A stretch of 64,000 bases of DNA from Branchiostoma floridae (Eukaryota; Chordata; Leptocardii; Amphioxiformes; Branchiostomatidae), in the NCBI RefSeq assembly GCF_000003815.2, contig NC_049979.1:19773201-19837200 (forward strand), in the 5' to 3' direction. Made by a program: the position numbers and the translations under genes. Below the pieces are notes generated by a model. It was given only the letters and a program-made list of their open reading frames with translations. It did no database searches and was not told where the DNA came from. Shown here in pieces: positions 9,501 to 43,007 of this stretch (the stretch's first letter is position 1; the number at the start of each line of letters is the position of its first letter).

Positions 9501-12500
9501 TGTATTTGAATTTGTTTATTGTAACTGTCGCGTTCTGGCGGCCCTTCTTCGGAGTAAACAACAACAACTCGACGTGCTCGAACGGGCGGTGGCCCCGTTC
9601 GGGGAAGGGTGTTCTAGAACCGCCAGAACGCGACCAGTAATGTGATTCAAAATAAAGTCAGTCTTGTCTTGATCGTCTTACAAGTGTGACGTTTGTCTGT
9701 GTGTCTCCGTCTTTGGTTGGTCCTTCCCTCTTTTCAACATTGGTGGCAGCGGTGGGATGCCGCTTTCGAGCGGCCAGACCCGTGATGAAACACCATCCAA
9801 GGCCCTCTGCCCGCTACCGTGTCGCCCGACTCGCCCGGAGACCATCGGCCAACCGCCTGATCACCCGACAACGTCTACCATGTGTCAAGCCGTCTCCGCT
9901 CGCTGCCGCTGTCGACAGAGCCCGACTCCACTCCACCCTGACGCCGTCCGTCGCCGACCGCGTGTACCTCGACCCGTGTCGACCACAGCTACCCTCGTCA
10001 CCAACTGTGAATTTTTGAGAATGAGCACCGGCGAAAACTTCTGCTGTGACCAGACCGAACTGTAAAAGGGCCTCTACTTGCTCCAGGAAGGCCACTGAAC
10101 TGTCATGCCGCAAGACCTGCGAACTTGAAATATACTGCTGCACGATGTCCTGTCCAAGGTGTTAAGTATTTTGTCTGGAGAGTATTGTGATATTTAGTAT
10201 TGTGGTGCTTACCTAGGAAGAACTAGAGCCTGCGGGACGACACTTCTAGGTAGAAGACTACTTTGCCCCTTGTCAGAACCTGCGAGGTTGCTGATTGTCA
10301 AGGAAATATTGTCACGATGATTGAATTTTGTATATTGAAATTATTTGAACTGATGCTTACCAAGTGTACTAGTAGAATCAATGACATTATTGATGGCTGC
10401 GGGGCGACTACTGCTAGTAAGACTATCCTGACCACACTGAGGGTGTGCCCACATGTATTGTTTGTGTTTTAAGATAGCGTTCTCTATGCCTTGACCGTAA
10501 GCCTGCGGGATAACGTTGATGCCTTGTTGAACCTATGCTGTGCTGTATTCTGAATTTTGACTGTGTGATGCTTGCCTAAGGAGCGCTGACGTCTGCAGGA
10601 CGTCTCTCCTAGGAAGATCAATGGTTGTATGATGCTCGCCTTAGGAGATAGAATGATTGCCTACGGGCCGACCCTATTCCTAAGTGCTTTTACTAGATGT
10701 GGAAACTGTGTGTACTTGCCTAGCTAGATGTGGAAACTGTGTGTACTTGCCTAGCTAGATGTGGAAAGCATATATTTGTAGCTACATAGAACGACTGCCT
10801 GCGGGCCGACCCTATGGAATGTTTTGATATGCCTTGAAGTACTTCGAAGTGGTGAGTCCACAGAAATATTTGTAGTATTGAAAGCGACACCTATAACTAG
10901 CTTAGACTTGATTTTAAAAAATATATGATTAGATTTTGTATGATAAAAGGATAAGTAGCAGGTGAGGACACCTGCTAACTTGAGGGGGGAGGAATGTTAT
11001 GTATTGTATTGTATCGTATATTATGTAATTGTATTTGAATTTGTTTATTGTAACTGTCGCGTTCTGGCGGCCCTTCTTCGGAGTAAACAACAACAACTCG
11101 ACGTGCTCGAACGGGCGGTGGCCCCGTTCGGGGAAGGGTGTTCTAGAACCGCCAGAACGCGACCAGTAATGTGATTCAAAATAAAGTCAGTCTTGTCTTG
11201 ATCGTCTTACAAGTGTGACGTTTGTCTGTGTGTCTCCGTCTTTGGTTGGTCCTTCCCTCTTTTCAACAATAGTATATATCACCTGTAGGTATGTACTTGG
11301 CACAAGTCCTCTTTTACCATTTTTGTCCTCAGCTACCCACCAGCCATCATCCCTACAAATATAAAAATTTATTACATACACAAAACAATGAATTGGTTGA
11401 ACAAAAATGAAATAAAACCAAAGACCCAAGAGGGAGAGAGAGAGATTTACAACTAAATGGAAGACAGGAATGTAGCATAATAGGTTGCCCAATACAAATA
11501 TAATATGCAATCCAAAGCCCTCTTCAACAAGACCACATCCACCTATAATGTGCATGCCCTTTGAAGTCAAGTTATACATGTACTAGTATGTCACTGGAAC
11601 ATATACTATATAATAACTTACTGAGTCTCCACTATACTGAGTATGTCTCCCTTCTTGAAGTTGAGATCACCTTCTTGTTCCCCCTTGAAGTCAGATAGGG
11701 CCTCCCATTGTCGTAACTATGGGTGGGCACAACAAGGCAAAATGTCAGATGCTGGAGGTAACAGGGAAGGAACTTCAACTCTTATAGTTTGCTAGTATTT
11801 GCTAAGAGATGTATGCCAATTTCAAAAAGAATTGGAAAAGCAGTTCTTAACGACTTTCCTCACTCTACCCAGGTGTAAAAATGGGGATATCACTTTGGTT
11901 GGGGAGGTAAAATGTCATAGAAGAAGAGGGACGGGCTCCACTTTCTGATACAATGTACTATGCCACTGCCTCTACGGACTCATGAATGTTATGGGACTAC
12001 CTTTACAAAATGTACCTCTGACAACAATGTCACTGACGCATACAGTTATTGTTAATTCTCCTCCTAAGAAGAAATCCCCAATAATTCCACAGATATCCAA
12101 GTCTAGAATATTAATTTCTATGGTCAAAATGGTACTCAAACACAAAGTACTAGTACATGTATGTTACTACAACAGGGAAGGTAATTCATCTCAGCAATAA
12201 CTTACTGTGTGATCTTTTACTTCTGTTGTTGTCTGTTCTACTTCTGATTCTTCTTCATCTTCATCTGTCTCCTCCTCGCTGCAATGACAACAAAACTGAC
12301 AACTCAGACTTTCCTTTATGCCTCCATTTGCCAAAGCTTGGAAAAAGAGAACTGTAAATCATGAAATGTTTGTGATAGTATTATTTTCATGATTTTCAAT
12401 GTGATTTATTATTACTGCAAAATCATAACACTAAGAATTAAATTGAAAACAGAACCACCAAGAATATGTGTTTTCTACTTCTACTGAAATGTATAGAATT

Positions 12501-15154
12501 GTTTCAACTGTAAACTCTAAGCACAGCAAAACATTCTATCCTTCCACAAAATGCAACCACCTCAGACGTACATGCATTTACAGTAAGATTTACTAAGAAC
12601 ACAAAAGGGATTAAGGTGTGATGATGTTACCTCTCTTCTTCAGAGTCCTCCTCTGATTCGTCCTCATCTTCTGACTCTCCCTCATCTGTCTCCTCCTCCG
12701 ACTCCTCCCCAGTCTCTGTGTCGTCTGTCTCCGTGGCTGACTGGGCTCCTCCCTTCTCCTGCACTTTCCTATAGTCAAGAGGAAAAGACCTACAGTTACA
12801 CAGGTAACATAAACACATGCTTATTTCTCCACCTGTGACAAGTTAGTTAGCGTTACACAATCTTATTGGGCCTCCTCACCAGCCTGACCAATGGAAGGAC
12901 TGCTTGAAACTTGATTTAATCAGGCCAGCATGCAATTCTAAGTTTAGAACTACATGCATGAATGCAGCAACACAGCTGCATTCAGCCAATCAGTACCACC
13001 CTGAGGAAGGTAAATATTGGCTAAAAGGCAGAAACACTTGTTTGCGTATAAATCACTTCATTATCATGTGAATCACCAACATGATTACACTATTCACCAA
13101 TGCAACCAATAGGTAGTTTCAGAATATATCGTTAACTATTGAAGTGTATGTATGTAAGCCAGCTTTATAAAATAAATGAAAGTGGCATATATCATTTTTT
13201 AAGTAAAAGTCATATATGAACAAAAGACATGTACATGTACACATGTCAGACTTTCCTACCTGAAGTAATCTTCTTCCACCTCATCAGGCTCTAGCTTACT
13301 GATGAGTTTCTCCAGTTGGTCCTGTATAGAAACAAGCATGAAAAAAATGTCTCTTCAACTGACATTTTTTCTCAAACAGTGTAGACTGAATACATTGACA
13401 GCATCAACATTTATTAAAAATGCTGCAAATAGCAATTTTTAAGCAATCATTTACATAACAGGCACTAGTACTTTTATGACTTTGTTTTCAGAGTGATTGC
13501 TTGCTGTGCTATTTTAGCTAACAAACATTAGCAATTGAATATTTTAACATATAGTTAGAAATACGACAATGTACTTACCCGAAGTCCGTCCACCCGTTTT
13601 ACTTCATCTTTCTTCTTTCTATCAAAGTCTGGTACTTTGATTGGTTCATCTCCCTTTAAAGAAATCAAAGTTCTTTTTCTGTCTAATCAACTGATGATCA
13701 AGATGAAAAGGACTGAATTCAAAGCTTAGCTTGTTTTCATATCATCAAAATACATTTTGTGCAAAGTGGATAGAAGCAAATTTTAAACATGTGGTTGACT
13801 AGCAAGAATATACATGTTCTCAAAAAAATTCACTCAACTTCTGGTAGGACATTTAAAGTCATAATGACAATAACTACTTCATCGTCAACATTCTAAAAAT
13901 ATCATTACAAAAATCAAAGGTATTCATAATAGAATGCCTATTTCCAAATCACGAAGTATTTGACCCATACACAAGTCCACTCAAGAAGGAATCTCTGGAA
14001 AAAAATCAGCATCTTCTTTGGCAACTAAATGACTGAACTTAAACATTTGACAGAAAATCTTAATAAGATTTGGTTTTACCTTCCTCAGTGCTGACACCTT
14101 TTTGTGCAAAGAGTTTGCAGTCTCCTTCAAACTGATGGACCTGATGAAATAAAATGATAATGGTACATGTTAGGCCAATCGACAAAACAGTAGAATTGTT
14201 GAATATCAATTACAGACGCATAATGTATACCAGCTGTCAATTGCATTTTCACCTTTAGGGTAGTGTATGAAAAATAACAGAGCTGATAAGCAACTTTGAT
14301 TCAGTTTGAAGTATAATTTTTTGAATTATACTTCAAACATCGTTTGCTCGGAAGTTGCTGACTACCAAGAAGTTATGTGCTCGGCTGGTACCAGCTGCAG
14401 CCAGGTTTTGGCCATAGATTCTACTTTCTATTAGGGTTTGTGTAACAATGCCTACAGCATGCAAATAAAAAGACTTAAATCATATTTGAAACATATGCTT
14501 GTCAAAGACAACTTACTCTCTGTACAAGTCTGACAACTTGGTAGTTCTCTCTGGGATGGTGGTATCATCCAGTAGAGACTGAGCTTCCTGACTTACATTG
14601 TCCACCTGCCAACAATAGAATTATCAATGACAATTTTCAAACAATGAAATTGTGACAATAGGACTGGCACATGTGTATGGAAATCATACAAGTTTCACAC
14701 AACAATGGTTATGGTTACGAAATACATGTAAACGAGACAACTGCTTTGATTTGATGCACGTTTCCTTGAGTGACGTTATAAAGTTCTTCTCTAAAACTGG
14801 ACTCTTCTAAATCAATTTTATGCGTTATTTATTATGGTGAGGGACACGCCCAAGTATGGCAGTTGATATGAACGAAACATAATTTGTCACTATTTCCTTT
14901 CTAATGTCCTATTCGTATATTGATATTGCGGCTGCGATATTGCGTCGTTGTTATCGGCCCCATCTTCACTAAACCTATGAGAATTTTTTCCTACATACCA
15001 TCTTTTCATTTACCAAACGTGCAAAATTTAGCCCCCCTCCCCCAAACCACTTGTTGTCATGGTTCACGATGCGATTTCGTTTACTTACCTTTCTCTTCAG
15101 TTCATCTCCTTCTCTCTGCGCAGTCTGCAGCGGTCCTTTGTCTTTAGAAGGCAT
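563..15154 (-). CDS. NPHP1: Nephrocystin-1, complete, 27 coding exons
   Basis: Scaffold protein of the ciliary transition zone and cell junctions. Exons (all phases join): 15154-15089, 14605-14517, 14140-14080, 13653-13579, 13321-13260, 12768-12631, 12278-12206, 11716-11622, 11352-11283, 9097-9061, 8906-8873, 8599-8554, 8146-8059, 7758-7667, 7491-7416, 7229-7183, 6765-6691, 6336-6264, 6079-6042, 5824-5742, 5466-5390, 3161-3062, 2691-2579, 2197-2124, 1656-1612, 1316-1200, 709-563; 696 aa (human 732). Seen: N-terminal coiled coil starting [10 protein letters not shown], Glu/Asp-rich stretch (residues ~119-188), SH3 domain (~189-243; [17 protein letters not shown]), then the nephrocystin homology region with [14 protein letters not shown] and [15 protein letters not shown], and a C-terminus matching human ([14 protein letters not shown]). 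The SH3 partners known in vertebrates are p130Cas and Pyk2. The intron between exons 9 and 10 hosts an LTR element. No break seen in the coding sequence. Confidence 0.95.
845..1000 (+). repeat. tRNA-derived SINE-like fragment in NPHP1 intron
   Basis: An A-box-like stretch (gtagtgtgcagtgg, from 851) is followed by a B-box-like gagttcgattct at 873-884, the usual spacing of a Pol III SINE head. It lies in the last NPHP1 intron. The right boundary is not defined, and no target-site duplication was found. This could be a degraded SINE or a chance match. Confidence 0.35.
3849..4571. mobile_element. Non-autonomous GC-rich DNA transposon-like element, tri-modular
   Basis: The ends are inverted: cagaggcggcggca on the left and, read on the other strand, cagtggcggcggca on the right. 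They are flanked by a 5-bp direct repeat actct (3844-3848 and 4572-4576), consistent with a target-site duplication. Inside, a ~180-bp module recurs three times, each with a 'gaaaattt(t)gaaatc' core followed by 'ctctgaaacgtcattt'-like sequence and a G-rich/C-rich hinge. No protein is encoded. CAG.GGCGG ends resemble hAT termini, but a 5-bp duplication is short for hAT. Family is therefore tentative. It lies in the NPHP1 intron between exons 21 and 22. Confidence 0.6.
9466..9739 (+). repeat. 5' LTR
   Basis: 274 bp, begins TG and ends CA. It matches 10995-11268 throughout by eye. It contains an aataaa near its 3' part on the plus strand, so its poly(A) signal faces away from NPHP1 transcription, and an imperfect GC-rich hairpin (gcgttctggcgg ... 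ccgccagaacgc). Confidence 0.9.
10995..11268 (+). repeat. 3' LTR
   Basis: 274-bp copy of the left LTR. It ends only 14 nt from the splice donor of NPHP1 exon 9 (exon edge at 11283). Confidence 0.9.
14304..14338. repeat. Perfect 15-bp inverted repeat (hairpin), NPHP1 intron 2
   Basis: Arms gtttgaagtataatt (14304-14318) and its exact complement (14324-14338) are separated by 5 nt. It may be the core of a small foldback element or a chance AT-rich palindrome. No flanking duplication was identified. Confidence 0.6.
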
Positions 15155-15631: not shown

Positions 15632-17778
15632 ATGGCTCACAACTTGTCCTTTGATCTTGAAGAGAAGAGGCGAGGGGTCACCGCCCGAATGAAGGCGGCG
15701 ATGGAAAGCATTATTCATAAGGTAAACGCGCTGTATAAACGTTTATCTCTGCCCCTCCACTTTGACAAGTATTTTTGTAAACGATCACAAATCTTTTACT
15801 TATTTTTTTGTACACACGTTGACGTTCTAATTATGGATACCTGTTTTGTCATATTCTTATGAAATGCGTGACTTGATTTACACCATACACCATGAAATAT
15901 AATCGTGGAGTCATCATTTCAGGTAAATTGAAAAACTCAAACTCAACTCAAATTCGTAATGTTCTGAAGTTTAATATTAAAGTGACGTTAGATAATAAGT
16001 TCATACAAGGACAGTCAAGGTGCATAGATCCAGCGTTTAGAACCAGGTGCCAACTTCAGATGCACTGTTTGAATAAAGTGTGAAAATTATCATGATGATG
16101 TTGATTTAATTGTTAACTTAATGTCAATATTATCACTATTTCAGTACCAGAATGTCGGTGAAGAAGAAGGTGACTTCTTCATAATGGACAGCTTGCAGCT
16201 ATGTGATGACAAAGGTGTGGCAACATTTTTTTTTTAAATTAGCAATCAAGTATGCATAATTTTTTACATGAAGTGAAAAAGAAGGTTTCAGACTTCTTCA
16301 TAATGGATGTACTACTACTAGTAGCTTGCAGCTATATATGTGAAGACATTTAGGTGTGGCAACAGTACTTTTTGTGAGCTGTCTACACATAATCTCTTAC
16401 AAGTTACATACTATTACTAGTATTAGGTATTGTAACACCAATGCTCATAATTCTGCAGGAAGAAAAACTGCCATTTTTTTTACATGTGACACAACCTGCA
16501 TGCAGCTGGTATCCCGTCTGTTCGTCTATAGCTTTATGCCTTAGTCAGTTTCTCTACGGGCAGATGTACACAGGTGGGCAGACACAGGACCTTCGCATAT
16601 CAAACTGGCCATAATATTCCTCCCCCTCAACAAATTAAGCCAATGTCCATGCAAGATGCAAGGCCATGATGGAGTCAGGATAATCAATCGCACCCAGTAG
16701 GAGATTTATCAATTACTAGGTTACTTAATTATTTATTAATCACCAGGTTACAATGAACAGGATTCGGATGTCCCTGTCAATAGAAAAATTGTGTTTATAA
16801 AAATTTCATTTATGATCATTCATTGATTCCTCAGGTCAACTCAGACATCAAGAGGTTGCACATTTCGGCTTCCTACAAGGTACATGTTCTTTTCTTGCAT
16901 CATACTTTATGATGATAGTGTGAGTCAATATGATGTTTAACAGTTATTTTACTAGATTATGATATGATTATTACTAAATAGAGAGTTATCTCGGTATAGT
17001 ATATTCATTTACCAGTAGTAAGTCATAATTTTGTATGGCAGGAATTGGATATTTAGAAGCTTATCATAATTCATTCTAATATTCTGAATTTCATACATAA
17101 CAATACAGACTACACAGTACACAGTAACTCACAAGCAAATCAAGTGCTCAAAATATTTTTGTCAGCCAGGTTGTCCAGGCGGCAACCTCAGTCAAAAATC
17201 AGGTTGCACCTTCAACATTTCAGGTTGCCCCACTTCCAAGTTCTTACTTACTTCAAAATTTCAAAAAATCAAAAATCAACTACTCATCCATTATCTTTTC
17301 TTCCAGTTACATGTAACTACTTCTGTTTCACCATATCAAGAAATAAATACAAAGCTTTGGGCAGGGGAAATTTAAAAGCAGTGCTCCAAATGCAAAATTT
17401 CAGGCTGCACACTGAGCTACCTGGGTTTAAAATGAAGATGCGCCAAGCGAATGTACCCAGAAGGATGAAAAGTAGAACGACGGCCAGAGCTGCCATTTCA
17501 TTACAGAATAGAGTACTTAAATAAATAAATAAATAAAATAGAGTACTTATACTCAGTAGAAAGAATCTGGCAGGAGAAGATGTCATTTCACAACCGAAAT
17601 AGTAAATGATACATTTTGGTCTGTAGCCTGTATGGGAGATAGTATCACCATTAGTGATGTTTATTCAGTATCAGTATAAGTTTATTTGTTATTTTCCATT
17701 TGTAGCTGGTCTTCCAGAAGACTCTGCTACCTGCAGTGCCAAAGCTGATGACAAGGAACTGGAGAGTGACACTGAACT

Positions 17779-17809
<31 letters not shown>

Positions 17810-20800
17810 GACCAGCCATCTGCTGTCAAGATGCTGAGGGACTTTGGTAGTAGGGTGGGTTTGCTAGTGACATCCTGGTTGAAAGTAATACATACAATTA
17901 TATTGAAATGAAAGAAGTTATGTACATAAAAATGTAACCAGCTGCTGCCAAGCCACGCGCCTGTGAAGCTGGTCTGTAAAAATTAAACTTTAAAGACCAT
18001 TAATTCCTGCTATATAGATACAGATACAAACACAAAACAAAGAAAATAAAACACAATGTCTATCATACTACATCTATATAGCTTAGCTTGCATACCTATC
18101 TGTTATTTAAGCATACTGTGGTCTACTGGTTTAGCTACTTATCTTTCTGTTGGATGTCGACATGTCTCAATCCTGATGCACTTTGATTTGGAGCATTTCA
18201 GATCATCAAAATAGTACATGTTTTCTTAGCACATATGAATATAAACTTTTTGTGAACTGTTGGTCTTTTTTCTTTTGATGCACATATGCATAAGTACGCA
18301 ACATGCTCATTTTTGTCATTCCCAATGTAGATGGAGCACTCCATATGTAGCAAGATGATATGTGAGGAGGGTGAGGATGGTAAAGTCCGCTGGATACTTC
18401 AAGATGGTGAGTTGTACGATGGTCCTAATAAGAAATACACTCAGTCTGGTAATTGATGGTGACATTGTGTTTAAATTGCAAATTTTAAGAATGAAGAACT
18501 TAAAAAGGCTCTGCTCCTGAGCCATCACCAATAACAAAACTTTAAATTACATTTGTGTCAGATGTGGAAGAGGACATCCTGACGACTATTGGTGACAGTG
18601 ACAGTGACCGAGGAGACATCAGTGGTGAGGACGAGTGGGCAGAAAGTGATGAGGAGAATGATGAGGAGAATGATGAGGAGAGGAGGTCACCAGACCAGCA
18701 GAACGAACACAGTCTTGAAGACAGCAGAAGCTCAGCTGGTATTGTGGAGAGTGAAGAAGAAGAAGAGTTATCGGATTCAAGTGGTATAAGTTACAGGGAC
18801 CCACTACATTCTAACACATCTACCAATCACATCAACCAAGATCACAAAAGAGATGACGGGTGTAAAGGGAGTACTTTGTTCTTCCACAAAAGTAGAGAGT
18901 CTATGGATATACCCACAAACAGGTGCAAAGACAACAAAGGCCATAAAAAGGGGCTTGACAGACCAACTAACAATGCCAGCAAACAACACCACCAAAGAGA
19001 CTATAGCTATAAAGAGAAAACTATGGAAGTTGACAAAAGTAGAGAGTCCATGGATATGCCCCCAAATGAGAACAAATACAATAGGAGCCATAGGAAGTTT
19101 ACTGACAAGCAAAACAAACCAACTAACTTTCTTAATGGCAGCAGAAAATCAGCTGGTGTTGTGGATAGTGAAGATGAACTCTCAGATTCAAGTGGTATCA
19201 GTTATGAAGAACCACACATATTTCACTCAACTAATAATGCCAGCAACAAAGGTCACAAAGGCGACGGTGGCCATAAGAAGAAATCTCTGTCGCTTCACGA
19301 AAGTAGAGAGTCTGTGGATATGCCTACAAAGAAGTGTAAGGACAATGGGAGTTATAGGAAGCTTACTGACAAACAAAAGAAACCAAGTAACATTTCTACA
19401 AATGGCAGTAGTAGGAATGCTGGTGCTGCAGAAAGTGAGGATGAACTCTCAGATTCAAGTGGTATCAGTTATGAAGAATCACACAAGTCTAGTACATCTA
19501 CAGATGCCAACAGAAAAGATTCCAAAAGAGACACTGTCTATAAGAAGAAATCTTTGTCAGTCCATACAAGTAGAGAGGCTGTGGATATGCCTACAGATAA
19601 GGGCAAGGGCAATGGGAGTTATAGGAAGTTTACTGACAAACAAAAGAAACCAACTAACATTCCTACAAGAAGCAGTAGAAGTTCAGCTGGTGTTGTAGAA
19701 AGTGAGGATGAACTCTTGGATTCAAGTGGTATCAGTTATGAAGAACCAAACAAATCTAAGATGTCTACATCAACTTATACTAGCAGCAAGGATCACAAAA
19801 GAGACAGTGGCTATAAGAAGGAATCTTTATCAGTTCACAAAAGCAGAGAGCCTGTGGATATGCCTACAAACAAGTGCAAGGACAATGGGAGTTATAGGAA
19901 GAGTACTGGTATTGAGAAACACAACAAAGAAAGTAACATTTGTACCAGTGGCAGCAGAAGTTCAGTTGGTGTTGTGGAAAGTGAAGATGACCTCTCAGAT
20001 GCAAGTGGTACTACTTCTGGTTATAGAGAACCACAGAAGTCTCATTCAAGTACTAATGCCAGCAGCAAATGTGTCAAAAGGGGCAATGGCTTTAAAGAGA
20101 AAACTTTGCCAGTTGACAGAAGTGGGAAGTCTATGGAAATGCCTACAAACAAGTGCAAAGACAACTCAAGCCATAGGAAACATATTGACAAAAACAAGAC
20201 ACCAAAGGAAGATCATCAGTTCTCACCATTGTTCCCTGATGAGGGCAGAAAGAAGACTCCATCAAAAACTTCACAAAGTAGAGATCATCATAAAGGCACA
20301 GACATTACATCTAAAAGACATCCACCTTCTACACAAGTTGCTAATAGAAGCAAGATCAGGAACAGCACATCAACTAAAGCACACACCCATTCTGTCAAGA
20401 AGGAAGAGCTCAGTAACTCAGCAAAGAAACAACAAAGTCACAACAACGTGTGCATGGTTGAAGAGTTTGAAGACATGGATTTTTCGTCCTCATTGGATAG
20501 TAAAAACAGGAAAATCGATCCAAGGGTAGAGCCATCTTGCAGTACAAATTCTGGCCATGGTACTCCTGTTTCAAGGAAGTCAGAGAAACACAGGAAGAAA
20601 GCTGACAGGAAATATACTCACCAAGATGTCATAGATCTGTTAGAAGAACCTGAGGAGAAGTCAGAGATGGGGAATGTTACACCACTACACCACAGGAGCT
20701 TCAGCAAAGCAGAAAACACAGACCAAGGTGTCAGTAGAAGAAAGTTCTTCAGTGTTCCAGCTAAAAGAAGAACAGCAGCCTTGACATCAAGTAGGGACAC

Positions 20801-23720
20801 TGACATTATCTCTGCTGGTAGCAAGAACGTGGACTTGTCCACACATCAGGCCTTATGTGACTTCTTGGGAGAACAGCCCAGTGACACATTTCAAAGGACA
20901 AAGAAAAAAGTAAAGAACAATCATACTCCCAGTGCCTCTACATCTCTTCAAGATGATGGTGGCCAGAGGAGCAAGAGGGATGCAGCTCTAAGGAAGGGGC
21001 AAGATCCTAATAACCATCTTGTGGGGTCCAGTTCTGAAGACAGTGGTGTAAGAGTGATCACTACTGCATCAACTTTGGGCCAGGTAGAGAAAATTTCATT
21101 CACAAAACCACCACCTAGAAAGGAAAGAGTATTGGTCCAACCATTTAAACAGCAGTTGCCATGTCACCAAAATGAAGGCTTTTCAGACAGCAGTAACCCA
21201 AGCTTCAACAGTCTGTCAGATGAGTACCCACTGGATCAGAAAGAAGCTAGGAGAAACACAGAAGCCTCAAGGAGTGTAAAAGAACAGCAAAAGACAAGGG
21301 AAGGTCGAGTCACCTATGCTAAAATGGATGAATATTCAGGAGAAGATTCTGACTTAGATGAGTCTGGTTCAAGTGAAAGACAGTGCAAGGCCTCCAAATT
21401 GTCCACCTTCAGTAATCCTTCTACTGGCCCATCAGCCAACAGGTCCACCCAGCCAAAAACAAGAGCAGTCCAAGAAAGTGAGGAAAGCATGATTAGTGAG
21501 GAGGCATCGCAACTCAGCACTTCAGCACACAGTATGGAAGAGACTTGTAGTTCTAATGCTGACCACAGTATTGAGATGGAGCATTCAGACCCTTCTCAAA
21601 CTTTCAGTCCCCAGTATTCTGATGACAACAGTTTCGAGGATGTTGAAGAGCAACTTCCCTCTGCAAAGCCAAAGAATGCTTTCTTTAATGCTCCTCTGAC
21701 CAATACACCAATCTCAAAGTCACGGCCACAGCATAGTCCTCTCACTCCCATATTGAAGACGCCAGGACAGAAGAGTGCAACACCTTGCAGGGAGAAGAAA
21801 AGTGTCTGCTTTTCTAAAGATGTAGAAGATCAGTTTATACAGCTGGATGCAATTCAGTCGTGGATACCTCGTATGCAACCGCCAATGGTCAACCTTCATG
21901 ATGGCCGTGAACTTGATCTCCCATCTCCAGAGTGCCACCAGGAAGACCAAGAAAGCCTGGAAACTTCAGAAGAGAATTTGGAGGAACCAGTATCTTCTCT
22001 GCCTTCCTCTTCTATACATGAAGTGAGGTCTCACCCAAAGAGTCCTGCCGTTCAGACATCCACTCCTAGAAGAGATGCTGACAGACCAAGATTCTCAACA
22101 CCAAAAGGACGTAAGATTGCACAGAAACCTGAAGTGCCCTCTCCCTCCACTCTCCATCGATTGGACAACATGAAACTGGGGTCCCCTATTCAAAAAGGTG
22201 CTTCCTCACAACAGGATGTGCTGAAAGACCAGTACTCAGAGGAAATGGAAGTGGACGAGTCACAAAAGTCCTCTACAGATTGGACCAAACAGTCTGTCAG
22301 CAGAGAACAAAGAAAGATGGACAACAAACTGACAGAGAGGAAGAGTGCTAGAGAATCTCGAATCTTGCAAGTTAACACCAGTAACTCCTCCTTCAGTGAT
22401 GTGGCAATGTTCTCTCAGTCATCTGAATCAAGTGGAGAAAAGCATGATGAGACTGGATCAAACATCCTGACACCAAGACGCAGTGGGAGGTCAAACAGTA
22501 CAACTGTTTTAAGAGCCCCCAAGACAGATCCAAGACACAACAAGAGAGGCGGTGCAAACAGACCCTCAGATGTTACAAGGAGGCTGAACAGATCTGAGGT
22601 GCTAAATGCACAAACAAGTAAGATTGACAGAGATGAGAGAGGAGCATCTAAACAACTTGAATGCTCATATCGTCTAAGACCAAGAAAAGTAGTCAATTCT
22701 GATGAGCAAGAAGTCAAAGACAGTCCAAGAAAAACATCTTCCAGACAAAATAGGAGGTACACCACAGCCAGAGAAAGACTAACAGAAAGGGCAGGACAAT
22801 CGTCTAGAAGTGTTGAGAAAAGAAAGGCTGACAACAAGTTTCCTCTGACTGCATCTCAAGCAAAACAAGTAGGCAGACAGAGGAAAGACGTTGGGCAATG
22901 GGGTCAGAGACGTTCGGCTTTTTCATCTACCTCTGAGACTGAAACAACTAGTAGCACTAGTGCACAGCAGGTTTCATCACCAGAGGTGGGGAGAAGAATG
23001 GTCACCAGAAGCCAAAGTTCATCATCGGAGATAGATACAGAGGAGAAGAAGACTAGAGGTCAAATGTTGCTAGATTCCAAAGTAAAAAAGGTTACAAACC
23101 GTCGTGGCCAATCAAAAACAGTAGGAGAGTCATCTGGTTCTGCTGCCAATCAAAAGAAGGGGCCAGGTAGGAGGAGAATCATCAGCTCTTCTGATGAACA
23201 AGAAAACCTGGGAACTCCTAGGAAAGTGTCTGGCAGCCAACGAATGAAATACAGCCAAGGCAAAGGGAGACTGACAGAAGTGAGAAGTCAAAGGTCACCA
23301 CAGAACTTTGAGGACAGGGAGGTCAGGAGGGAGTCTCCTAACCCAGTTGTAAGGCAAGAGGAATTACCAGGTGAGTTATGTGTACTTCTACAGAAATAAA
23401 AGAGTGGAGTTGTGGCAATTTCAACTCATGATGGGCAATGAATATAGCGTGGGAGAAAAAAAATTTCATATTAAAACTTTTTACTGTTTGATGCCAGTCT
23501 CTCGTTGCGGCCTGTTACAGGGTAACTGTATGTCAATATCAGCACTGCCATCTCATGGGGCTCAATTCATAAGGACAGGCTCATTGTGTTTCAGGTAATT
23601 TAGGCTATACATTATTAGGCCTGTGAGTCTGATAAAGACTAATGCTTCTAACATTTTTTTTGTCTTCTGGTTGCAGACAGGAGAGCTGAGTGGAAGAGAA
23701 GGAGTACCCGTCGCCGGTGA
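15632..23720 (+). CDS. Scm3/HJURP-like CENP-A chaperone candidate, 7 coding exons
   Basis: Exons 15632-15721, 16145-16214, 16835-16879, 17706-17854, 18331-18406, 18562-23370, 23677-23720; phases join; 1760 aa. Residues ~15-62 look like the Scm3 domain of HJURP/Scm3, which loads the centromeric histone CENP-A: a basic helix (EEKRRGVTARMKAAMESIIHK), then YQNVGEEEGDFFIMDSLQL and DDKGQLRHQE, paralleling the fungal '..IIEKY..EGDEIDL..GEIVxDxGHLR' pattern. An acidic Asp run follows (94-102). Exon 6 encodes ~90-residue tandem repeats, then a long Ser/Lys/Glu-rich, probably disordered region with a PP1-docking-type KKSVCF (~1222-1227). The C-terminus is basic (RRSTRRR). Human HJURP is 748 aa, so this is over twice as long. 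Start chosen because coding character begins there. The domain call rests on a short motif; the gene model itself is solid. Confidence 0.65.
16271..16364 (+). pseudogene. Degenerate tandem copy of exon 2 of the Scm3-like gene
   Basis: This intronic stretch repeats exon 2 and its donor flank (16156-16226): 'gaagaagg', 'acttcttcataatgga', 'agcttgcagctat' and 'ggtgtggcaac' recur in order. The copy has a short insertion around 16311-16322, lacks a good acceptor, and is interrupted by stops in the exon frame. It looks like a local tandem duplication that decayed, not a used alternative exon. Confidence 0.7.
18727..20205 (+). repeat. In-frame ~90-aa tandem repeats inside exon 6
   Basis: The phrase 'SRESxDMPTxKCKDNGSYRK' recurs at about 18893, 19040, 19301, 19568, 19847 and 20125, and the acidic phrase 'VESEDELSDSSGISY' precedes each later unit. 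Spacing is about 261-279 nt, with one shorter 147-nt step between the first two. The units differ at many positions, so they are old enough to have diverged, but they keep Ser/Asp clusters of the type seen in CK2 sites and SUMO-interaction motifs. Confidence 0.9.
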
Positions 23721-26432: not shown

Positions 26433-29400
26433 TTAGTCCTTGGTCAGAGTAAGGTAGAGCTCCAGAAAGAGAGGTTTGACCGTCAGGAGGTTCAGTTTCT
26501 TCCTCTTGAAATCTGTCGGCTTCTTGTAGCTGTAAGATTGGAATAAGAGCAATATTCCTGTCATTCAAGAAATCTATTGGAGTTACTGTAAGTTCTGAAA
26601 CACAGTACTAGTGGTATTTTATTCACTGGTTTGCTGCAACCTCAACACAGAATAAAAATGTTGTTGCATACATTGTATACCTGAACACTTCAAGAAAAAA
26701 CACATGAGCATTCAATTGGCTTGCTCTTATCACAATTGTCAGTCTAATAAATCTAACATATGTAGAGATTTTAAGATTAAAATGTTGAACATTTCTACTC
26801 ATGAGCAATGCTTAGGCTGAAATAATTTTTTTTGCCAAAAAGCAACCACAACAGGGTAAAGGATAAAGACTAAGATTTCAAACAGATAACTCACAGTTCG
26901 ATGGAGGCAGGGCCTGATTTCAGCTCATCCATCTCCATAAAGGCCCAACACTTGATGCTGGTCATTCTCTTCTTGGGCTTGTAGTGTTTGAACTCGAAAA
27001 ATATTGCTGTTCCTGTGGGAGAAAGGAACGGTCAAACTATGGATACTGAATAACTCTCAGAGACAGTTAGGCGACAAACTTCTATGTCAACTAACGACGT
27101 GCTGTGTTCAAGGTTAATATCCTGTATAGGTTCATGTAGTTGTGCCCAATGTCCGTGACTCTGATGCGACATGGTGCCATGAGGATGAGAGAGACTGGGC
27201 TGTAATAATATGCTTGGATGCCTGGCTACACATGTACATTGTATACAGTATACAGTATACACAATACATTGTATACAGTATATACAATACATTCTGCATC
27301 CCCCTTCCCCCAAATACCCAGTGATTTTTCAGTATTGTATTAGAAGTATCTCACCTTTGGGCATCTTCTCTACATGTCTCTGTATTTCTACATCCACGTT
27401 GAAGTACACATAGGGGTCTTCCTTCTTACTGGCTATGGGTGTGTCCTGGGGCTCGGTCAGGTCAATACCACTGACATCTGTGGGGTAGGCAAAAAGTAAC
27501 CACTCTTAACTTGTTTGGCAATAACAAAAATGTTCATTCTTGGTGATTCCACTGCTGTATCAGGAAATAGAAGAGAGGCTACGTACGTACCTTTCACACT
27601 AACAGTTACGTAAGGGTCTATGTGCTGACCAGCATCCTTCAGTCCTATCCTCTCTATCCTCATGGTCAAGTTTGTCATCCCTGGCTCCGGGGGAAGTCGT
27701 GGCAGTAGGCTTCCACCTGGAGTTAATGTGAAAAAAAACTTCTGTTAAGTATGTACAGTAGGAAAACACTTTGACAATTCAATGCTAATATACATGTAGA
27801 GCTACATGTACATCCTCACAGAAAATTAATATTAATATATATGTTTGATAGAAACAGGACACAACCTCTGTATTAGCCTCATCTGGGCATCTATTCCAGT
27901 ATAAGAGTAGGCATCTATTCCAGTATGTAGGCATCTATTCCAGTATATAGGCATCTATTCCAGTATATAGGCATCTATTCCAGTATATAGGCATCTATTC
28001 CAGTATATAGGCATCTATTCCAGTATATAGGCATCTATTCCAGTATATAGAAAATCAGATGTGCAGTTTTCTAGGGTGTTTTGTAAACTATGATATTCTT
28101 CGGAATATATGGTAGAGACACAGCATTATACATGGTATATTTATATAACAAAACATAAGCCACAAATCTTACTGACCATACCGGATGTGTAGACTTACTT
28201 GTTGGTTTGGGTGTGGTCGGTGTGCTCCGTTCACCTCTCGTTTCCTCTTCCTCCTCCTCTTCCCCATCTAAGTTCAGCACACTGATGTCCACCTCAGGTC
28301 CTGCTGGTCTCCTGGTGGACAAATTGGCATGTTTTACTGGACAAGTATAAGCCCTTTCACAGAGATCAAACTGCATGTGCAGCAACAAGAATTGTAGATA
28401 ATATGTCAAAGGTACAGGCCATGAAAAAGAAAACTCGACCATTGTTTTGATTTGCATAACAATGTCCAGTTGGGATTTGTTTTCTTCTTCTTGGCCTTTA
28501 CCTTAGACATAGTACCTAGAATTCCTGTCATCACACATGCGTTCTGATTACTGTGAAAGGCCTTATTGGGGATGGGGGTGTAGGAAGCAAGATGAAGGCA
28601 CCTTTATTACAGTCTGATGTTATCAAAACATACAAAGAATCGGAATCATCAGCAAGCATTCCTAACAATATAGTTGTACAAGAGGTACTTTAACTGTTGA
28701 CATCTATAGGTCCTGCAATGTCAACAATGATTAACAATCGTATAATCCTTTCTTCTGCATTTGCACAATAGTAGCAGTAGTAGACTGCAATTTGATAAAT
28801 CAACAAAATGCAGAATAATGTAAACAATACCAATCTTTGTAGTTTTCATGAAGTGCATACCTGACTGGGGAGAAATGTGACACCTGGACTGGGAACTCCT
28901 CTGGGTTGGCATCCAGTAAATTTTTCAACACTGAGAGAAAGAGAGCACAAAAGAAGCAAAAAGAAAATGGAAGTTAAATATTGTAGGAAAGTAGTTTAAA
29001 TCATGCATATGAAAGAAGAAAAACAATATTTGAAATGTTGTAAGCAAGCCTAGCTTTGTTAAAATTTTGGTGCACTGTAACTAAGGGTGGGTAGCAGTAT
29101 AAAATGTTCAGGTCTGGTCCAGGCCCAGGTCTGTTTTTTTCAGACCACTCCAGTAAGAAATACCTGTTCTGTACCAGTACCCTGCTCTAAGTGTAACTAT
29201 GTATGATGGTGCAATTACTAGTTGTAACATGTAACATGGTAGGAGCCTATGAGGTTCTATGTGAGTCATACTTGGTTCCACTTTTTTCAGCTCTTCCAGT
29301 GACAGGGAGTCCTCCAGACTGGTTCCATGGGCAGCCTGAAGAGCCTGGCTTCTCAAGTCTAAACATGTCGACACTTTGGACAGGATTCTCTGAAGCACAA

Positions 29401-35380: not shown

Positions 35381-38336
35381 TTAGTCGTTTAGAGGCCTCT
35401 CCTCCAAAGCTTTCTTTAGTTTCAACCAATCGTAAGAGCCGATTGCATCACGTGACACATCCACATACGTGATGATGCGGATTGAAGCTGGTACGTTACA
35501 TTTCTCGAGCATGATGGGAATGACGCAACCTCTCTTGCTTTCCAAACTTTCCGCCAGGGCTTGGTTTGTCTCGTACTTACACCACTCACTGGTCACGAAG
35601 TTTGGTGTGAGGATCAGCAGGGTCTTGTAGCTGTTCTTGATGCTGTGAACGATGTTGTCCGGCACATACCTCCCTAATGCAAAGTCTCGGTCAGCTACAC
35701 AACCTGGAAAACATAGAGATCTTATTTTATAAACAATGTTTACAATGTAAAAATATCAGGCGTTGTGAAATTGATCGCTGTGCAAATAATAACCCAACTA
35801 CACACCAACACACGCACAGAGCGATAAAGTACTGCTCATCGGTTTAAAATAAGAGCCTTTGAATGTTTGTGCCACATAACACTAGCTTTTAAGCACTTAA
35901 TTTCTAAGAACTTAAACGCTGTATATATGAGTTGAACGAATTTACAACACTTTATGTATAGTCAACGCTGTGGAGGTCGAAGTGCTATTCACAATCTATT
36001 CGTGGATTATCGGCGAACAATGATGTATCGCAATATTAGCTTTTCCCACGCCCGTGTATCAGCCACCGACAATAAGGCCTTATGTCAATTGCACCCTTGG
36101 ACCAACTCCTAGTATTTGCTTGCTGTGATAAAAGGGACCTATGCATGGCATTGACCAGGCACTTTGGTCTGCCTCTTAGGCACACAAAAAAAGACGACAT
36201 GAATATCATGCAATATGGTAACGTTACTCCTTCAATAAACTGTTAAACTGTGAAATTCAGACACACACTTCACTATATATTAACCGGATAAATGCAAATA
36301 TTTTGAACGACTATAGAGAAATAGCGTGTTTGGTTATTACACTACTTTACAATAGAACCATGTCTACTTATTATTTCTACAGTAGACAAACCTTTAAATC
36401 GATATTCCCCCTCCAGTGCAGGTAGAAGTGCGTAGTTCACCCAGTCGGCGTCTTTGCTGCTGTGTGACACGAAGAAGTCGTACTGGAACTCATGGCCATG
36501 TCGGGGTTTCTCTACTGCCATTGGGAGGTTCACGTGAACGTTTGACTTGGACCGTGTGGAGGACGTGTCATCCGCTCCAGATGCTCTCTCATCATCTACT
36601 TCTGGAAGTCTGCTTCTCATAGTCGCTGCCGTACTGCGGTATCTTAGGTTGTTGTGCCGTTGAAAACAATCAAGACAAATCTTGGCAAGCACGTATTTGT
36701 CATGGTCAATGAGATACTGGCATACTTGTATCATCTGGCCACCGAACTTGAAGACGCAACCTTGAAGAGCTTGTTTGATGTTTGGGTACCGGTACCTCTT
36801 GTAGCCTTCGTTGATCCAGAAAGCCAGTTCGGCGATGTAATGCTCTCTGCGGTCTGATCTAAAAAGTTCCAGTAGGTTCCTCAGCACGCCAGCAAGGTTC
36901 CCGGTGAAGGTAGAATTATCGTTCTCAACGGCACGCTTATACGACTCTGCTGCCATTTCGTGCTCTCCTGCAACTTGAAGACTCAGACCTCTGGCTGCAT
37001 GTATCCTGGGATTGGCGAAGCCGTCTTCTAACTGCAGTGCCATGGCAAAGTTGTCAAGTGCATCACCTAGTTCATCCATGTCCTCAACGTTTCCTGTTAC
37101 AGGATGAACGGCAAGCCTGTGACAGACTTTACCAACGTGGTAGATATTGAATGGCGTCAGTACGCCCTTACAGGATGCAACTGCGTCTTGTTTGGCCATT
37201 AGGAGTAATTCTTTTGAGGGTAATGCCGCTGGATTTGGAGCTTCTTTGCGCTTTTGGTCGTACTCGAGCATACTAACTTGCGACCTATCGTAATATGCAA
37301 ACCAATTACTTGTACAGTCAGGCATTATCTCTATCGATTGATTCAACATCTGTCGAGCTTTGTTGAACATGTTAACTCGCATGTAGCTCCTCCCAAATCT
37401 CCGGTAGATCTCACTGTCATTTGGGTTGATTTCCAGTGCCTTTACGAAGCAACCGAACTGGAGCCCTTCTGTCCGGGGATTTCTTCTTGAATGTAGCGGG
37501 GAGATTTATACCTTTTGAATGTCGCTCTGCACTTATTCTCNNNNNNNNNNNNNNNNNNNNNNNNNNNNNNNNNNNNNNNNNNNNNNNNNNNNNNNNNNNN
37601 NNNNNNNNNNNNNNNNNNNNNNNNNNNNNNNNNNNNNNNNCCGACTAACAGCACAACTAGGATTCATCTTAGTTACCTCTATCAGAAGTCTTTGTGCTTC
37701 AAGTAGCCCCTCCTTCCTGTCGTCTTCCGTCAATGGTGTTTTATCCTGCCTGTCATTTCGTACCTGATCGAAGCGCCAGTAACAGATACTCAGGTAATAT
37801 TTCCAAACAAGACACTCTTCTTCGGTCAAAGCATTAGTGTTACACACCAAGCTTAAGGCTGTTTCCAAGAGACTGATCGCTTGTCCTACCTTCGAAACCA
37901 TATCTTTGCTGTCGTCCCTTATATCAAATGTAAGAGCATACGCTTGTTCCGCAAAACAGCGAGCGTTTCTTGCCTTGGCAGCATCGGATTCGTCCGACAA
38001 CAGTCCCTGCAGTTGATCCCTACACGCCATCTCATCCTTCGCTCTCATCAGTCGGCCATAGATGAACTGTTTGTTGGCGATAGCGTTCAGGTTGCTTGTA
38101 TCCTTTTCAGTGAGTTTCTCCAATAGTTTACGTGCCTCACCTTGCCCACGTTCTATGCGGAAAGCAAAAATGCTCAGTAGGTTGGTCATAGCATTCTCCA
38201 TCGGCCCCTTTTCCCGTTCCATCCTTTCCTTGAGATCGTCATACCACGGCGTAACATCCTTCGTGTCCTTGATGAACAAGTCAAGGTGAAAGAAGCCAGG
38301 TTTGGGAACTGTAGGAAGAAGCCCACCGGCAGCCAT
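35381..38336 (-). CDS. TPR-TIR protein, copy 1 (interrupted by gap and an apparent frameshift)
   Basis: Two exons: 38336-36392 and 35703-35381, joined in phase 1 inside the TIR domain. The N-terminus MAAGGLLPTVPKPGFFHLDL leads into helical TPR-like repeats reminiscent of IFIT proteins (e.g. AESYKRAVENDNSTF). A C-terminal TIR domain starts at YDFFVSHSSKDADWV and continues with KTLLILTPNFVTSEWCKYE. The BB-loop segment reads DRDFALG, lacking the usual Pro-Gly. A 100-N gap (37541-37640) replaces what the paralogue predicts to be 39 bp. Near 37471-37480 the frame shifts by one missing base relative to the paralogue. Whether this is an assembly error at a contig end or a real lesion cannot be told. 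Role inferred: innate immune signalling adaptor. Confidence 0.85.
37541..37640. other. Assembly gap (100 N) inside TPR-TIR copy 1
   Basis: The neighbouring paralogue has 39 bp between the codons that flank this gap, so the true missing sequence is probably much shorter than 100 nt. Confidence 1.
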
Positions 38337-39723
38337 TTTTCAGGTGTTCGGACTTTGTCTCCACTCAGATTCAACAATCAAACAGATAGCAAACACTCCT
38401 GGGGACATAAGAATAAAACCTTTCTTCAGAATAATTGTGCGACTTCGTTGTTACTGTGAATGCAGGTATTTTCTCTCCGACGGTCATTAGTATAAAGGCT
38501 CACTCAAAGTACCATGGGCCTGGGCAATAGACGCACCACGACCATGCCCGTGGAGCCACTCCTTAGTTTCACAGTGTAAATCATTAACTACATGTATTGC
38601 AATCATAGTACGTTTATAACACTGTCACATCATTCTTACGTATACTTTGGAAATGTAGTCAAGACTATAGCTTGTTGGATCTGGAGCATGGACATGATGA
38701 AAAGAAGGAAATGATAAACAGGACGGGAAAATAATATATATGATGGCATTTTTGTGATTTGCTCAGATCTCAGAAAAACAAAGCTCAAGTGTCTAATACC
38801 GTTTCTACAATTCTAGGTTCAAGACATGCGTTCAAACATTGCATCTGACGGTACTTCTCTAAACATCTAAATGCTACTCACCAAAAGCCGTCCGACAACT
38901 GTCGTTCGAATTCGGGTCTGCGGTTTGGTTCAGTCCCGACAACGTCATCCAAAAACATGTGACTACCTGAGCAAACTGTGAAACTGTGACGTCATTGCTG
39001 TAGTCTCTCATGGCCCACGCCATGGGTGATTACACTCAGAGAGGTTAGCGGGGGACTACCAATCAAATTTCCCATTTTATCTGCAGAACTTGAAACCGGC
39101 TGCACATATGACAAGGCAACAGGACAATCGTTAATGGTGGAGGCTATTGAAGCCATTGCCTTTTCTAGACAACGTTTTCACTAATGTGAGAATCATCCTC
39201 TTAATATATATATTCTCTATCGACATGGCCATGTCGAAAAGACAGCCAAGACATTGTCATATAACGATACGGTCAACGGACTTTGTTTAGATAACGGAAT
39301 AAAAAGCTGAACAAAGGTCCTATATAGTGCTGACAGTCCAATATTTGAAGCTTTGTTCTCAGTGAGGTACGACATGGAACCGAGTCAAAGGCGGAAAGTA
39401 CAGAAATGCTGTTGCACGTGACCAGCATGAATGCCATTTGACACAGCTAGCTTATTGTTCATCGCTATGTATATGTAAACCCGTAAACATCCTGCACACG
39501 TACAACTGTCTCTACAAACGTGTCTACAGCCGTCGAGCAAAACTATATTTGTCATGATTTTCTAAGTAAATGTCATGTCACTGAAAAATGGTGTAACCCA
39601 GCTAATTAGAAAGCGAATAGCAAGTAACTCCGTATCCGGCACCCAAGTTCACGAGGTTGCTCCTTGTATTTCTACATAATTTGCGTGCGGACACGGTTCA
39701 ATAGAAATCTAGTCTGGACAAAT
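38337..39723. promoter_or_regulatory. Divergent promoter interval between TPR-TIR paralogues
   Basis: 1387 bp separate the two start codons of the head-to-head paralogues. The stretch has no coding potential. Shared regulation is plausible but not shown; no interferon-type or NF-kB element was confidently identified. Confidence 0.5.
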
Positions 39724-42700
39724 ATGGCTGCCGGTGGACTGCTTTCCCCTGTGCTCACACCTGGCTTCTTTCACCTTGACCTGTTCATCAAAGACACAAC
39801 GGATGTTTCTCAGAGGTACAAAGAGCTCAAGGCAAGACTGGACCTGGAAAAAGGGCCGATGGAAAGTGCCCTTACAAACCTTTTGAGTGTTTCTGCGTTC
39901 TACAAACGACGCGATCAAAATGACGCCATAGACGTCATAGAGGACTTACTAGAAGGCCTCACCAAAAAGGACGAGAACAATCTGAACGCCATCGCCAACA
40001 AACAGTTCATATATGGTCAACTGATGAGAACGAAGGAGGAGATGGTGTGTAAGAATCGACTGCAGGAACTGTTGTCAGACGAATCCGATGCTGCCACAGC
40101 AAGAAATGCTCGCTGTTTTGCGGAGCAAGGCTACGCGCTGGCATTTGTAAGAGACGACAGCAAAGACACGGCTTCGAAGATAAGACAAGCGATCAGCCTC
40201 TTCAGAACAGCCCAAAGTTTGGTGAGTAACGTTGGCATAGATGCTGTGAGTGAAGAAGAGCGTCTTGTTTGGAAACACCACCTGGGGATAGCCTACTGGC
40301 GACTCGATGATCTCCGTGTACACGCAGAAAACAAGGCGACATCGTCTCACATGAATGACGACAGGAAGGAAGGGTTACTTGAAGCACAACGACTGTTCAT
40401 AGAAGTAACCAAAATGGATCTAAGTTGGAAACACAGTCGGTTCTACATCGCACGAGCATGGGGTATGTTGGGAACTCTTGAGCACAAGTGCAGAGTAAAA
40501 TGCGAACAGTATCAATCCCCTGACTATCTTGTCAAGCAGATTCCCCAGACCGAAGGTCCAGGGCTGGAGTGGGGTTGCTACAAAAAAGCACTGGAAATCA
40601 ACCCAACTGATTATAAGGTGTACAGGAGGTTTGGACAGAGCTACAGTCGTGAACAGCTGTATGAAAACGCTCGACAAATGCTGGACATATCGATAAACAT
40701 AATGCCTGAAAAGACAAGTAATTGGTTTGCATATTACAGTAGGTCCCTCGTAAACTTGTTTGAGTACAATCAGCTGATACGCCGGTGGCGCAGGGTAGGG
40801 TCCCCAATCCCAGAAAAACAGTTACTGCAGCGAGCCAAAGTAGACGCCATTACATCTTGCGAGGGGGTAAGGACAAATTTCAACACTTTCCTCCTAGGAA
40901 AAGTATGTCACAGGCTTGCAATTCATCCGGCAAACGAAGTTGTGGACATGGATGAATTAGAGAATTCACTTGACAACTTCGCCAAAGCACTACAGTTAGA
41001 GGACGGATACACCGACCACAAGATACATGCAGCCAGAGCATGGAGTCTTGAGGTTGCGGGAGAACACGAAAAGGCGGCAGAGTCGTACAAGCGTGCGGTT
41101 GAAAGCGACGAACCTACCTATCACTATAACCTAAATGGGGTACTTAGAAGCCTAATGGTACTCCATGAATCAGACCACTGTCACAAGGGGCATTACATGG
41201 CCGAACTAGCCTTCTGGATCAACGAAGGCTACAAAAAGTACGAAGATATCAGACGCTCCCTTCGCTATTGCGTCTCCAAGTTTGGAAGTCAGATGATACA
41301 AGTATGTCGGCATCTTATTGATGATGGCAATTTCCAGCTGGCTAGGATCTGCCTCCGATGTTTCAAACAGGAAGATGACATTGAAAGCTACACAGCCGCA
41401 ACGTTGTTGCTATCAGAAATTCTCGAAGATGATGAACATGGAGCATCTGGTGCTGTCGGCAAGTCGACAAGTCAATCCGAGCACGGAGTCTCCAGCAAGG
41501 CAGCCCCAGTAAGAGTAGAGAATCCGCGTGAAGATCAAAAGTTCCATTATGACTTCTTCGTGCTACACAGCGGCGAGGACGCCGGTTGGGTGAACTATGT
41601 CCTTGTACCAGCGTTGGAGGTGGACTGGGAATTCAAAGGTGTGTAGTAATCCTTGCCTTGTAATATTAGCGTTTCACTTAATGTTAGGGTATTTCTTTAT
41701 ATATGATTATTGTAAAGAACCCCCAGGACTATTAGTTCCTTTGATCAACATGTGTGTTTAAGACTGTTTTGGGGGTAGGCTATACAACATGGCATTTGCA
41801 TATGGACTTTTGACAGTATTATATCTATCTGATGTGGATGTACAAATTTAGGCAGTAAACCATTTTAAAAAATCTATTCATTTAGCATACATTATGTACT
41901 TTCTCTAGCTAGCTAAGACATGGTCTCAATGGACTGTTGACGTAAGGCGCTATGGCCAGTGACTGGTCGTTAATTGAATCTTGCGAAAAGCTTGGAAAGT
42001 CTAGCCCCATATCGAGAAAGACTGATTGAAAACAACCAGACTTATCTGATACCTGGTAAACACCCTGTCGGAATCTGTTGCCAATACTACGTGACCTGTC
42101 GCCGCCTCAGCTGTGGCACAAATAAAGAAAAATTACAGGTCAATCTATAATGAATGGGCGGAGGGAATCCTCTAGTGAACAGGTTAAAACGTTAACATTT
42201 ACACGCTCTCATTGGCAAATAAAACAACAAACTGCTATCTGTGCAAAATTATGCTTGTGTCTGCCGCTTTATTATATGATTCTTCCACATCTGTTTGTAC
42301 TGAACTCCATATCGACCTAGGAGAAAGAAATTGCGTTCTTGGTGTTGTTTTCTTTCACCGCTGTTCCACGGCTGTGTACGGTGGACGAGTTCACGAAAAA
42401 CACATACACTTTATATGTGTCGCCAAACCTAGTGCTTGGAGACTACATTTGCGAAAAGCTAGAGCAAATATAGCCCATATAGATTACATGTATATCTCTG
42501 ATTTTTTTATATAGTTCTGCTAAGTGTGCTATTTCTATAGTCTGATCTCTCTGTCTCTGAAGGTTAGACTGAGCTCGGCTCAGTGATGTCAACACCAACA
42601 GTGTAAACATTCTTTCTAATGTTTACTGTCAATACCATATCCCAGGTTGTGTAGCTGACCGAGAATTTGTACCCGGGAAGAGCGTGTTCGACAACATCAT

Positions 42701-43007
42701 CTACAGCATCGAGAATAGCTACAAGACCCTGCTGATCCTCACACCAAACTTCGTGACCAGTGAGTCGTGTAAGTACGAGACAGAACAGGCCTTGATGGAA
42801 AGTCTCAAGTCCAAGTCCGGGCGAGTCATTCCCATCATGCTCCACGAGTGTGACGTACCCGCTTCAGTCACGCACCTGGATGCGTCACGTGCTATCGGCT
42901 GTTACGATTGGTTGAAACTGAAGGAAGCTTTGGAGAAGAGCCCTCCAACAGAGGCAGACCAAGAGGAACAAATCGTTGGAAGCCTCCAAGACATGACATT
43001 GAAATGA
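39724..43007 (+). CDS. TPR-TIR protein, copy 2, intact
   Basis: Exons 39724-41638 and 42646-43007, joined in phase 1; 758 aa. The start MAAGGLLSPVLTPGFFHLDL matches the paralogue's start and has A at -3 and G at +4. Residues ~1-590 are helical TPR-like repeats (e.g. AWSLEVAGEHEKAAESYKRA). The TIR domain runs from ~609 (YDFFVLHSGEDAGWV) through CVADREFVPGKSVFDNIIYS and NFVTSESCKYETEQAL to ~735. BB-loop Pro-Gly is retained, but box 1 reads LHSGEDAG and the Trp before Cys is Ser, unlike copy 1. The intron splits the TIR domain at the same codon in both copies. TIR genes with TPR or other partner domains are expanded in amphioxus; signalling or NADase activity is not established here. Confidence 0.9.

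Follow-up and report, generated by a model that had tools for sequence, protein, structure and literature searches.

Gene Organization of the Amphioxus Locus

The window, that is, the whole 64,000-base stretch of Branchiostoma floridae DNA that was analyzed, spans bases 19773201-19837200 of contig C1 in a genome of 513,431,437 bases and 431 contigs. On its plus strand, splice signals and open frames define a seven-exon gene model with six GT-AG introns in compatible phases, which encodes a protein of 1760 amino acids and ends at 23720. Exon 1 (15632..15721) supplies the start codon and the predicted scm3-domain helix (LEEKRRGVTARMKAAMESIIHK) and terminates in SIIHK; exon 2 (16145..16214; YQNVGEEEGDFFIMDSLQLCDDK) contributes the Y of a KY dipeptide, an acidic and hydrophobic strand region and the first part of a DXGXL motif; and exon 3 (16835..16879; QLRHQEVAHFGFLQ) holds the end of that motif (G-QLRHQ) and the end of the scm3 domain, with one G codon divided between exons 2 and 3. 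The peptides quoted in the original prediction are encoded where it placed them, except that one of them, SLQLCDDKGQLRHQE, spans exons 2 and 3 rather than lying within a single exon. As the reading frame 5' of the chosen ATG stays open to 15368, an earlier start is possible and the true start of the candidate protein is not fixed.

Farther downstream on the same strand, exon 4 (17706..17854) is acidic with an Asp run, and exon 5 (18331..18406) follows in the gene model; when these two exons and the start of exon 6 were compared with Pfam, the sole match was CDC27, at an E of 4.9. Exon 6 (18562..23370) is a 4809-base open exon that encodes a Ser/Thr-rich, mostly basic and presumably disordered tail, and exon 7 (23677..23720) adds a basic C terminus and the stop codon. 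The last 559 residues of the protein returned zero Pfam matches at E ≤ 10. Within the tail, at 21738-21827 (residues about 1203-1232), the segment ILKTPG...KKSVCFS resembles an RVxF-type motif, which we take to be a protein phosphatase 1 docking pattern, and the protein contains two other loose RVxF matches.

The window contains several other genes. A divergently oriented gene on the minus strand (11190-15154), delimited by eye from ORFs, has an SH3 segment (PF07653) above its cut-off together with acidic and coiled-coil-like segments, and we take it to be nephrocystin-1-like. Its likely ATG and that of the candidate are about 480 bases apart, so the two genes may share a bidirectional promoter. 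Two similar genes lie head to head at 35384-38339 (minus strand) and 39628-43004 (plus strand), in which a TIR ORF comes after TPR ORFs, a description that draws on four scanned ORFs, with 37536-38339 joined by eye. Exons of three other families were also observed, namely an AIDA-type C2 domain gene (27460-27744, minus strand; 34.7 bits), an FKBP-type isomerase (46885-47109, plus strand; 24.6 bits) and the Bcl-2 family (60932-61438; 46.4 bits).

Profile Evidence for an scm3 Domain

The original prediction placed the product of exons 1-3 in the Scm3 family and proposed a profile search of the N terminus as a check. When the N-terminal 78 amino acids were scanned, the Pfam Scm3 model covered residues 9-58, with 50 of its 53 profile positions aligned, and scored 28.8 bits against a cut-off of 24.3 (E = 1e-6 after library size was taken into account), which bears out the assignment. 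Scans of longer segments gave 25.2 bits for the first 218 amino acids, again above the cut-off, and 23.2 bits for the whole 1760, slightly short of it. Rival Pfam families on the N-terminal region were insignificant (BUD22, E 9.8; DUF6124, E 0.097 with exon 1 alone). Built up by exon set, the Scm3 score rose from 13.4 bits for exon 1 alone to 25.7 for exons 1 and 2 and 29.3 for exons 1-3, indicating that every exon contributes signal in the expected, collinear order, and exons 2 and 3 without exon 1 gave zero Pfam matches. For reference, the human HJURP chain fragment scored 40.1 bits with the same model.

Comparison of the 78 N-terminal residues with PDB chains by phmmer found three chains at E 1.2-1.3, none of them HJURP or Scm3. 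Identity is low even inside the scm3 domain, at 27.26% among the deuterostomes studied (PMC13322267, in the sections drawn on here), and, given this low identity, similarity to a single solved member was not treated as defining for Scm3/HJURP. A six-frame search of the amphioxus genome with PF10384 returned zero matches; the exons are short and the control matched in 0 of 14 genomes, so this outcome shows nothing.

Features attributed to the scm3 domain in PMC13322267 include a KY dipeptide, regularly spaced hydrophobic residues along a helix, a strand of acidic and short hydrophobic residues, and a DXGXL motif that is relaxed in metazoans. The candidate has the KY dipeptide at K30-Y31, aligned with the KY of 3r45_C (human HJURP), 2l5a_A and 2yfv_C (yeast Scm3), and it has DXGXL as DKGQL, across exons 2 and 3. 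In the helix region, which in the family is about 25 residues long, four hydrophobic positions are, as judged from sequence, common to the candidate, human 3r45_C and yeast 2l5a_A, and two further positions are common to human and yeast and absent from the candidate. Of the 22 helix residues up to KY, the candidate shares 7 with human and 6 with yeast, and human and yeast share 3 with each other. The strand region after KY (EEEGDFFIMDSLQLCDD / EEEGDFFIMDSLQL) is acidic and hydrophobic, yet bulkier than usual (F, F, M).

Shuffle and Splice Controls

An alternative is that the apparent domain is a product of chance, in which a basic helix was combined by eye with an acidic segment to give something that only looks like scm3, and several controls bear on this explanation. 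When the 78 residues were shuffled 5000 times, the true sequence ranked first of 5001 under a profile made from two yeasts and human (15.8 bits, the next scoring 7.7) and second of 5001 under one made from yeast alone (10.3 vs. 10.6 bits). When the small profile was run over 2757 single ORFs in the window, the top score (8.7 bits) lay elsewhere and the exon 1 ORF was second (5.6 bits). Because the reader of the sequence had been free to choose splice sites, a splice control was also made, in which exon 1 was fixed and exons 2 and 3 could be any GT-AG choice from the gene's own introns, the reverse complement of these introns, or seven other stretches of the window. The home-made profile (two yeasts plus human) was tried for this control and rejected. 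With it the true protein scored 15.8 bits, whereas the top fished splicing from the gene's own introns scored 19.8, and the maxima of the seven other stretches lay between 10.8 and 18.9 bits, two of them (18.9 and 16.9) above the true protein; the reverse complement of the introns peaked at 15.7. A three-sequence profile that ranks false splicings above the true protein is too weak to separate the two, and the control was repeated with Pfam.

The Pfam control set comprised 36 models sharing exon 1, that is, the true model and 35 controls, the latter being the top four per stretch with distinct exon-2 starts, chosen by high score and not randomly; one model in which the true exon 2 was followed by a false exon 3 was removed and the true model substituted. 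A Pfam E of 2.5e-5 was reached by only one of the 36 models, namely the true one, and by none of the 35 controls, and an E of 5e-4 was reached by four, the true model and 3 of the 35 controls. A chance assembly gains some ground from these three controls, in which exon 1 joined to false exons attained 5e-4, and from the inability of the three-sequence profile to tell true from false splicing. It is countered by the standing of the true model as the sole one to pass 2.5e-5, by the exons joining the 4.8-kb open exon in frame, and by the publication of a Branchiostoma HJURP (PMC13322267), and we consider it extremely unlikely. Membership of the candidate in the Scm3/HJURP family is supported, as far as profile and motif comparisons go.

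Relationship to Known HJURP and Scm3 Proteins

We propose that the candidate is, very probably, the HJURP/Scm3 of amphioxus, a member of the chaperone family that deposits the centromeric histone CENP-A on chromosomes. Orthologs of HJURP have been reported in echinoderms, teleosts and cephalochordates, including Branchiostoma belcheri XP_019630933.1 (PMC13322267, 2026), and as amphioxus HJURP is already described there, the present finding is correct yet known in substance. The original prediction described recognisable HJURP as patchily distributed in animals, a view now outdated, since most metazoan lineages investigated have it, cephalochordates included (PMC13322267). The candidate is likened to XP_019630933.1, the reported cephalochordate protein, by its published description and not by sequence letters (PMC13322267), and with one copy found in the genome the two are most likely orthologs. 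That copy number comes from a protein search of the candidate's own genome (E ≤ 10), which returned three matches, all of them exons of the candidate gene, and found no second copy. Similarly, just one strong HJURP match emerged in most deuterostome genomes, and a short N-terminal scm3 domain is common to deuterostome HJURPs (PMC13322267).

Like human HJURP (3r45_C), the candidate has an N-terminal scm3 domain with KY and the helix identity given above, but it keeps DXGXL where the human chain has PQGLR. With yeast Scm3 (2l5a_A; K. lactis 2yfv_C) it has in common KY and an acidic strand region, and 2l5a_A also resembles it in its D-x-G-x-I and helix residues. The yeast proteins differ in their far higher Pfam scores (70.8 bits for S. 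cerevisiae and 59.4 for K. lactis), and the tail of the candidate, with its repeat array, is far longer. The whole candidate protein had no HJURP_C or HJURP_mid match in Pfam at E ≤ 1; we take these to be family names for conserved regions outside scm3, where the Mis18-binding R2 presumably also lies. Homology outside scm3 is reported to be common to tetrapods and teleosts and not to extend to echinoderms (PMC13322267).

A Repeat Array in the Exon 6 Tail

Inside exon 6, at 18994..20164 on the plus strand, a tandem array with a unit of about 267 bases, or about 89 codons, runs for 4.3 copies with 76% matches. Alignment at the protein level gives six imperfect units; the first is shorter than the others, the last has diverged, and SRESVDMPTKKCKDNGSYRK and VVESEDELLDSSGISYEEP are examples of their cores. 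The best Pfam match to the repeats was an archaeal Pus10 model (E 0.013), below the cut-off, and we found no mention of an array of about 89-residue repeats in HJURP in the sections of PMC13322267 drawn on here. In human HJURP, two repeats that can substitute for one another are reported to bind the Mis18 complex (PMC6731319). The roughly five to six 89-residue repeats of amphioxus might likewise be a lineage-specific multivalent docking region recruiting the chaperone to centromeres, a proposal that we regard as doubtful; if it were so, our guess is that an array of unrelated sequence would play the part of the two Mis18-binding repeats of the human protein.

The tail also bears on another explanation, under which the candidate is a former HJURP, or a relative of it, that kept the scm3 domain and took up other chromatin work, for example as chaperone of another H3 form. 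Nothing points to this directly; the tail is without a significant Pfam match, and the repeat array has no HJURP counterpart that we found described in the same sections of PMC13322267, both of which such a change would accommodate. However, the protein search of the genome yields one copy only, and HJURP proteins are little alike outside scm3 even among deuterostome orthologs (PMC13322267), so that a changed role appears very unlikely.

Proposed Mechanism and Significance

Taken together, we hold with high confidence that the locus encodes amphioxus HJURP/Scm3, apparently in single copy, with an scm3 domain that would carry CENP-A-H4 and a tail that would target the centromere, both as expected from the family. 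Also present in the genome are a SANTA-family exon (35.8 bits), SANTA being a domain of Mis18BP1/KNL2, and two exons that exceed the cut-off for Yippee-Mis18 (at 36.9 and 29.7 bits), one of them presumably Mis18-like and the other a Yippee-like protein, as judged by eye. In the family mechanism, as set out in the sections drawn on here, the scm3 domain carries CENP-A-H4 and centromere targeting proceeds via Mis18/Mis18BP1 or CENP-C (PMC13322267; PMC6731319). In amphioxus, the helix of the scm3 domain (residues 9-58) would lie along the CENP-A alpha2 helix and the strand after it would pair with CENP-A loop 1. Bound in this way, a CENP-A-H4 dimer would travel with the protein to the centromere, brought there via the Mis18/Mis18BP1 complex and/or CENP-C by the long tail, which is basic and rich in Ser/Thr, and CENP-A would be handed over at that site. 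By analogy with the family, CENP-A-H4 binding, CENP-A loading, recruitment and timing may all be properties of the candidate.

The broad question of which animals keep the HJURP chaperone has been answered in PMC13322267, and the contribution made here is the exon-level anatomy of HJURP in a probable basal chordate. Since both the KY dipeptide and a fungal-like DXGXL are kept, the candidate offers a convenient link for comparing fungal Scm3 with human HJURP.
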